Shown here in pieces: positions 4,891-7,800 of a stretch of DNA of 64,000 bases (its first letter is position 1; every line of letters begins with the position of its first letter). The stretch comes from Biomphalaria glabrata (Eukaryota; Mollusca; Gastropoda; Planorbidae): positions 8,243,501 to 8,307,500 of the forward strand of contig NC_074713.1 of NCBI RefSeq assembly GCF_947242115.1. The letters are read 5' to 3'. The position numbers and the translations under genes are program-made. Below the pieces are notes generated by a model. That model did no database searches, was not told the origin of the DNA, and worked only from the letters and a program-made list of their open reading frames with translations.

Positions 4891-7800
4891 ATGGCGTCCG
4901 TCATAGGTTCCGAAGTGGAGATACAAGAAGTTGAAGTTGATGCTATTCCAGTAGAAATGCCGATAGAGACAGTCGAAACGTCAGATGAAGTTTCTGTACA
5001 GCCAATGATTGCTTTACAACCTTTACCTGAATCAGGAGGAGAAGAAATAGTTTTACAAACTCGAGAAGAAGTTGTTGGTGATCCTCATCTTGTTTATTCG
5101 GACTCAATACCAGTGCCAGCACCTGAAATAGAAATTTCCACAGAGGAAGTAATTCCAATGAGAAAAGGAAAAGGAAAAAGAAAAGGAAAATCAAGAAATA
5201 TTGTTCAAGGAGGCAATCTTGGTGTAAATGATTTAGGGCTCGGTGATACTTCTGTTAAGAAATGGGAACAAAAACAAGTTCAGATAAAAACACTCGAAGG
5301 AGAATTTTCAGTCACAATGTGGGCGTCAGGTAAGATTTTTTTTAACAAAGTATTTTCATATTAAAATCAAACTGTTCATAGGCGTTACTTATTTGATAAA
5401 TACTCTTTATTTTAGCTAGATTTAGATCTAATTTAGAATAAGATGCAGACTACAATGCTACAAACGTAGCCGTCTAGGTCCAGTCTAGCGTCTAGCCTGA
5501 TGTATCATTCTTTGTCATCCTTGAGACAATTTTAGAATGCTACCACCGGTGATTACAGCGTGTTTGATCGTGCCATATTGATGTATAATATTTGCCATGT
5601 ACTTTTATTAACACATTTTATCATTTTTATACAATTTTGTAACATATTTGGGTTTGTTTTGAAACTAAGTCGGCCATTATGATTCTATGGGCGCCGCCAT
5701 ATTCTTCGTGAAAATGGCGGAGGGAAAATTGAAGATGGCTACCGACCGCCATTTTGACATGGTGGTAGTCATGATTCTATATATTTTATTTGTTTGTACT
5801 GCAATGGTATTTCATTTCTGATGGAAAAACTGGATAGTTATTATTAGTTTTGCAATAGTATGGTTTATGTTATATTATGTTTGGAATTCGCCACTCATAT
5901 AGATGTATTATTTTAATGATATAAGTGGTATTTGTCTTGACCTTGAACAACCTTGGAGCCATTCGTAACGGCACATAGGGCGGAAGTGAAGTAAAAAAAA
6001 AAAAATAAGGCTAATGAAAAACGAGGCCACTGGCATGCGCAGTTAACATGCATTGGTTTACTTTCGCTTTCACTTTGTCTTATCTATTAACATTTGTTTT
6101 TCTTCAGTATATACTATAGATCTAGACTAGTATATGTGGACCTTATTTAGATGAGATTTGATCTTTCTAGAAAATAATAATAATGCTTGTCTTCTAGTCC
6201 GGTGTTAATAGATCTAGGATTCTAGTCCATCACGACTAGATCTAGATTTTTAGCATGCTTCAACAACTCAACTGTGAAAATTTTCTTTCATTCATTGTTC
6301 TGTACATAGACGGACATCGTCATAGATCTATAACTATAGATAATAGTATAGATTATAGATTTTAAATTTATCGTGACATTCATCCAGGCTTTCTATAGAT
6401 AAAGAATGCCTGGCACTTTCAGGCAAAAGTATGAAATGACCACAATTTCTAATGCTAATGCATTCTTAATCATTCTAGATCTATAATATGAATAAATAAC
6501 TAGTTCAACGTCAGGCAGTGTAGATGCTAGATGTAGATCTATAATTATTATAATATTATATTGAAAAATATAGATAAGTAAAATACAAAATGAAAAACAG
6601 CATTTCTTTAGATAAAATATATATGTGTATGTCTATAGTCTAAGTCCATTTTTCAGATTATCAAATGATTCCCTATAAAAACTAATTTTATTTTAAAATA
6701 GTAAAAAAAAAAATCATTTTGTTTATTCTGTTTCTAACTAGTCATCTGAGCAATTACATTTGCAGAAATATTTTGCATACTAAGCAGGTCAAACTGCCTA
6801 CAGATAGGGAAGTACAATAAGTATATGCCTACTCATTATTTTTTATATATTTCTCCTAAAAAGAAAACATTATATAAAAATCAAGATAATAATGTTCTAA
6901 TTAGTTTCATTAATTTATATTATGAAGGGGCAATAAAGAAACTGTCTATAGAAAAAAAAAAGAGTATTTACTATTCACATATACTTTTTCTTCCTTTTTC
7001 TGTCTTCATTTTTTAACAAAATATTTGTTTTGGGTAGTTAAAACTTAAGTTCACCTAACAACTGCACATAAATAATAGGACAAAGCATTACAAAACTATA
7101 GTTATATAAAATGACAATTCAATCTATAAAACTAATTTATTTAATGTAAAAAAATAGTAAATTATAGGCTTTAAAACAACAATATTAAGGGACGATGTGA
7201 CTTTATAAATTTTTGTATCATTTACATAAGCAAAGATTACAAAGAGGAACTCCACAACTTTAATTTTCTTCAAATGTTAGTGAAAAAAAAATGCTTTTCA
7301 GTGGAGAATCCATTTGTAATCTTTTTTTCTCAGGATGGGACATAAAGCTGATTAAATCCACCTGACTGCAAGAATTTAAACCTAAAAGACCCGATTGTCA
7401 CAAACAGATTTTGTTTCTTCCATTAAAGCTCACACACACAGTTTATTATAAAGTTTAATGTCATTACAAGTTCTATTTTTTTTTATATTTAAGCTGCTTC
7501 AACATTCTGTCTTTTCCTCAATGGCCTTATGAGCATCATTAATGGTGTCAAATAGTTTGGACATAAAATTGATAATTTAATTAAACTTTTTTTTTTACAA
7601 TCATAAAAATGAAAAGCATTTTAGCAGCTTATTATTGGGTTTTTATTATTAGTCATATTAACCTTAATAACATATCATTCTTTTCTTGCATCTTTAATAA
7701 AACACAATATGAAACATCTTCTGAGGATCAATTTAATTTATTTACCTAGCATAAAAACAAGACAAAATTATTCAGATTTCTAAGAAACTATTGATATTAG

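Follow-up and report, generated by a model that had tools for sequence, protein, structure and literature searches.

The YY1 gene and the sites in its first intron

We analysed a 64 kb window (the whole stretch of DNA whose first lines stand above) from the snail Biomphalaria glabrata, and describe here a cluster of predicted YY1 binding sites at 5672-5755 that lies within the first intron of the YY1 gene itself. The gene, which extends from 4891 to about 11088 on the plus strand, is identified as YY1 by its sequence. Blocks of a YY1 probe were found in order on this strand, and the exon borders of the spliced frame are all GT...AG:

4891-5329, plus strand: YY1 exon 1, coding part from Met (probe and spliced frame)
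5330-8400, plus strand: YY1 intron 1, GTAAGA...TTACAG, 3071 bp, 27% G+C (spliced frame)
8401-8545, 8890-8947, 9065-9223 and 9755-9924, plus strand: YY1 exons 2-5, four zinc fingers (spliced frame and structure match)

Against 1UBD, the structure of the YY1 zinc fingers, the encoded fingers give an E value of 1.6e-79, and the 120 residues compared show few differences, all of which are in or before finger 1. Since the fingers are nearly identical to the DNA-binding domain of human YY1, the snail protein is expected to have the same DNA specificity as its human relative. The C-terminus can be read in two ways, as the frame either ends with HAKAK-stop (9925-9930) or is spliced at a GTAAGT located there. 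Three further open exons (10013-10078, 10254-10322 and 11031-11088) would in the latter case add about 62 residues past the last zinc finger, which vertebrate YY1 does not have.

Binding sites were scored by two definitions, namely AANATGGCGG, which is the core AAnATGGCGG used in an earlier sequence-only reading of this DNA, and the literature consensus GCCATnTT, in full (A/C)GCCATnTT. The sites found at the 5' end of the gene are as follows:

4697-4705, plus strand: additional YY1 site AATATGGCT, about 190 bp 5' of the start codon (consensus)
5572-5579, minus strand: near-perfect YY1 site AATATGGC, GCCATnTT preceded by T instead of A/C (consensus scan)
5672-5680, minus strand: imperfect YY1 site, GGCCATTAT on the plus strand (consensus)
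5694-5703, minus strand: perfect YY1 site AATATGGCGG (both definitions)
5711-5720, plus strand: perfect YY1 site AAAATGGCGG (both definitions)
5732-5740, plus strand: perfect YY1 site AAGATGGCT, with core AAGATGGC at 5732-5739 (full consensus)
5746-5755, minus strand: perfect YY1 site AAAATGGCGG (both definitions)
5756-5765, plus strand: weak YY1-like core GACATGGTGG (consensus only, low weight)

The three exact copies of AANATGGCGG (5694-5703, 5711-5720 and 5746-5755) are the only ones in the window. Intron 1 contains five GCCATnTT sites, at 5572 (minus), 5696 (minus), 5711 (plus), 5732 (plus) and 5748 (minus), four of which fall inside 60 bp, and the four that are perfect by the full consensus fall inside 61 bp. 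With the imperfect site included, the cluster thus has four perfect sites and one imperfect site across 84 bp, and its G+C content is 50% as opposed to 27% for the intron. Across the window the full consensus has 11 matches, 6 of which are located at 4697-5755. The sequence-only reading had reported three exact core matches plus a fourth strong site, placed in an AT-rich intron 340 bp after exon 1, and this description holds, with the fourth site being the one at 5732-5739 and the cluster starting 343 bp past the end of exon 1 at 5329. It had also counted a match at the start codon as support. This match, AAAATGGCGT at 4888, fits GCCATnTT and not AAnATGGCGG, and the argument is weak because its bases are largely fixed by the Kozak context and by Met-Ala. 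Indeed, the start codon at 25217 of a gene that its downstream exon marks as probable MED29 has the same context (AAAATGGC at 25214) as the YY1 start, and we therefore rejected the start-codon site, as ordinary context, as evidence of autoregulation.

Non-randomness of the cluster and its surroundings

The clustering of these sites is not random. The expected count of AANATGGCGG in the whole window is 0.14, and none of 100 shuffles reached three copies. When intron 1 was dinucleotide-shuffled 2,000 times there were on average 0.44 GCCATnTT sites and never more than 2 per 60 bp. The higher G+C content of the cluster fails to explain this result, since 20,000 shuffles of the cluster's own 96 bp gave at most 2 sites. 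A motif-blind control used 12,614 motifs of the form two bases, gap, five bases, each with 2 to 30 matches in the window. Only 10 of these pack at least four non-overlapping copies into 60 bp, and nine of the 10 do so within tandem arrays, with the tenth, AANATGGC at 5696, being the sole tight clusterer outside such arrays. Finally, 7 of the 18 GCCATnTT sites in the window sit in 1,060 bp at the YY1 5' end (binomial 9e-9).

Regarding how such a sequence could have arisen, the sequences that flank the four perfect sites are mutually dissimilar, and a repeat scan of the window found neither a tandem array nor a repeat family over the cluster. On these grounds an origin from a duplicated repeat was rejected. 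The transcript of 5670-5765 does fold better than its shuffles (z -2.6), as is to be expected because oppositely oriented copies of one motif are complementary, and an RNA hairpin as the function of the cluster was set aside as a by-product of this arrangement. No Rfam families or tRNAs were found in the 64 kb window.

The cluster is located in a stretch (5250-6000) where the CpG observed/expected ratio is about 1.0 relative to a window mean of 0.39. Two further motifs lie 225-290 bp past the cluster, within the 650 bp around it that have preserved their CpG in an intron that is poor in CpG elsewhere:

5980-5988, plus strand: ETS-type site GCGGAAGTG (picked after looking)
6033-6040, plus strand: NRF1-type core GCATGCGC, unique in the window (picked after looking)

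These two motifs co-occur twice in 20,000 shuffles of 5430-6080, a figure that is only indicative as they were chosen post hoc after about a dozen patterns had been scanned. In annelids, YY1, NRF and ETS motifs are characteristic of promoter regions that are unmethylated (PMC11292947). The segment at about 5570-6040 reads as a promoter-proximal control module to which the YY1 cluster would belong.

Relation to the deuterostome cluster and rival explanations

Kim, Yu and Kim (2009) described clustered YY1 sites at the beginning of YY1 intron 1 (PMC2743690). Most vertebrates have five sites per 100 bp, one of them imperfect, with spacers that are not conserved, while the sea squirt has three sites and amphioxus four, and a sea urchin sequence was also aligned (PMC2743690). 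Chromatin immunoprecipitation (ChIP) detected YY1 on the cluster in mouse brain, any alteration of the zebrafish sites abolished promoter activity, and excess YY1 lowered the activity of the zebrafish promoter in mouse cells in a site-dependent manner (PMC2743690). YY1 also occupies the first intron of YY1 in mouse cortex (PMC8748737). The sequence-only reading had pointed to an autoregulatory cluster in vertebrate intron 1, and this was correct, as the ChIP, promoter mutants and negative feedback are all published (PMC2743690).

The snail cluster shares with these deuterostome clusters its host gene, YY1 itself, its location in the first intron and its closeness to exon 1, and it has the 3-5 mostly perfect sites per approximately 100 bp that characterize them. 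As in vertebrates, a stretch of <100 bp holds four perfect sites plus an imperfect one, in both orientations and with spacers that are not conserved. The intron itself is probably in the same position in snail and mouse, since ChmYYb3, the primer used for ChIP of the mouse cluster, encodes WEQKQVQIK, a peptide that is found near the end of snail exon 1. One difference is base composition, with the snail intron at 27% G+C versus approximately 80% G+C around mouse exon 1. Another is that the snail is a protostome.

Taken together, we consider it probable, at roughly 0.62, that 5672-5755 is a YY1-bound cis-regulatory element of intron 1 that acts as a level sensor and is the protostome counterpart of the deuterostome cluster. 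The cluster would most likely sense the amount of YY1. At low or normal YY1 levels partial occupancy would support transcription from the YY1 promoter, and at high levels full occupancy downstream of the start would lead to repression. Of the human transcription starts that respond to YY1 knockdown, those whose activity drops have YY1 at a preferred place just downstream, whereas those whose activity rises have it bound at a greater distance downstream (PMC11269187). This offers a straightforward way to obtain activation at low occupancy and repression at high occupancy. A sensor model was proposed by Kim et al. (PMC2743690), and the mechanism suggested for the snail is in line with it. The counterpart would have been kept through turnover of individual sites and not as alignable sequence.

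Several observations weigh against this interpretation. The snail sites have the order minus, minus, plus, plus, minus, which departs from the vertebrate rule that two sites face in one direction and three in the opposite one, with the outer two opposed. The outer snail sites are opposed only when the weak site at 5756 is counted. This rule is conserved in vertebrates, with no stated requirement for it in invertebrate deuterostomes. The snail sites also lie 343 bp inside the intron, unlike those of vertebrates, and they cannot be aligned with the vertebrate cluster, so that common descent has no support from alignment. The cluster is absent from Drosophila pho (PMC2743690), and zinc-finger and exon 1-2 queries found no further YY1 locus in the genome-contig and viral-contig collections. 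A DNA pattern built on the convergent site pair gave 11 matches among viral contigs, which we assume to be random matches, given the size of the collection. Because of its orientation order, the snail cluster is a variant and not a strict member of the vertebrate element. This mismatch lowers the case for the two being the same element and leaves unaffected the case that the one works like the other.

A rather unlikely alternative has the cluster working as an activator bound by YY1, or as an alternative downstream promoter of the housekeeping type, without homeostatic feedback and with the sense ATGGCGG sites being initiator-like elements, or elements like the translation initiator of short 5' untranslated regions (TISU), of a second transcript. 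The CpG-preserved stretch, the ETS motif at 5980 and the NRF1 motif at 6033 would all suit such a promoter, AAAATGGCGG is similar to TISU, a YY1 element of short 5' leaders, a frame of 35 codons starts from the ATG at 5714, and Kim et al. leave room for a promoter of unknown transcripts (PMC2743690). However, the four perfect sites are divided evenly between the plus and minus strands, the 35-codon frame has no obvious splice, and the deuterostome counterpart responds to YY1 dose (PMC2743690). We regard it as similarly doubtful that real YY1 sites were gained independently in this lineage, which would make the cluster a case of convergence on an autoregulatory design. Short sites are readily created by point mutation, and both the spacing and orientation unlike those of vertebrates and the absence of the cluster from fly pho (PMC2743690) are congruent with independent gain, but the gene, the intron, and the number and grade of the sites all agree with deuterostomes, and clusters also exist in amphioxus, sea squirt and sea urchin (PMC2743690). 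Improbable, in turn, is a Polycomb-response-like element in which clustered YY1/Pho sites recruit Polycomb and silence YY1 in some cells, since PRE-PIK3C2B is a 25-copy tandem array versus 4-6 snail sites that have no tandem unit, and the module resembles that of an active promoter. Finally, it is very improbable that the cluster arose by chance or as the side effect of an RNA hairpin or a duplicated repeat, as the fold score that speaks for this is opposed by the shuffle tests and the motif census, by site flanks that do not align and by the lack of a tandem array or repeat family at the cluster.

If the intron-1 cluster is indeed a counterpart of the deuterostome one, the history of YY1 self-regulation would need to be revised. 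From the absence of the cluster in fly pho, Kim et al. inferred that it formed after vertebrates and invertebrates diverged (PMC2743690). We lean, by a small measure, toward a self-binding YY1 intron-1 cluster in the bilaterian ancestor that was kept by turnover in lophotrochozoans and deuterostomes and lost in flies. Given common descent, the mollusc cluster would contradict the published origin after the protostome split (PMC2743690), it would be among the oldest autoregulatory elements known, and YY1 self-regulation would date back to the bilaterian ancestor. The sequence-only reading had proposed that such a cluster in an invertebrate would be either very old or convergent. The older origin is supported here, whereas the invertebrate case as such was already published, for deuterostomes (PMC2743690), and what would be new is a YY1 intron-1 cluster in a protostome. 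Our literature search found no published report of one, which is weak evidence of absence. Very little regulatory DNA can be followed across the divide between protostomes and deuterostomes. A survey lists 25 segments conserved across bilaterians, and YY1 is absent from its main text (PMC10735318). A YY1 cluster maintained by site turnover would escape alignment. An origin in the bilaterian ancestor is open to direct test in the public genomes of molluscs, annelids and arthropods.

Other features of the window and comparison with known YY1-site systems

Elsewhere in the window, 25217-27911 is a probable gene for Mediator subunit 29 (Pfam Med29, 6.7e-12, in a downstream exon). A 157-bp unit occurs twice at 18701-19017 with 100% identity, and was either duplicated very recently or is an artefact of the assembly. 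A 38-bp tandem array at 56661-57291 has about 17 copies with 88% matches, and all three plus-strand frames are open there for >200 codons. As the 38-bp array keeps three frames open, these long frames are repeat artefacts. On the minus strand, 45401-46255 codes for a retroelement RNase H (Pfam RNase_H, 3.5e-12) with a zinc-binding reverse transcriptase tail, and a fragment at 2756-3121, also minus and 42 kb apart, resembles a relative of it. The window is rich in TAGATCTA, a feature reminiscent of freshwater snails, and the repeat signature AGATCTAG had no match in a search of the snail literature.

Three known systems bear comparison with the snail cluster. Imprinting control regions such as that of Peg3 also have YY1 sites clustered in an unusual way, and the level of transcription depends on them. 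Mutating the Peg3 cluster lowers Peg3 and Usp29, but it is a mammalian imprinted region outside the YY1 gene and has no autoregulation (PMC5526879). PRE-PIK3C2B also has YY1 sites clustered in a first intron (PMC3689693). It differs in being composed of 25 tandem copies of a 25-mer that recruit Polycomb repressive complex 2 and in not being self-regulatory, whereas the snail cluster has no tandem unit and its flanks differ. Finally, AAAATGGCGG resembles the core of TISU (PMC7798263), which is a single sense-strand site located at a start codon close to the 5' end, while the snail sites are several, on both strands and intronic.
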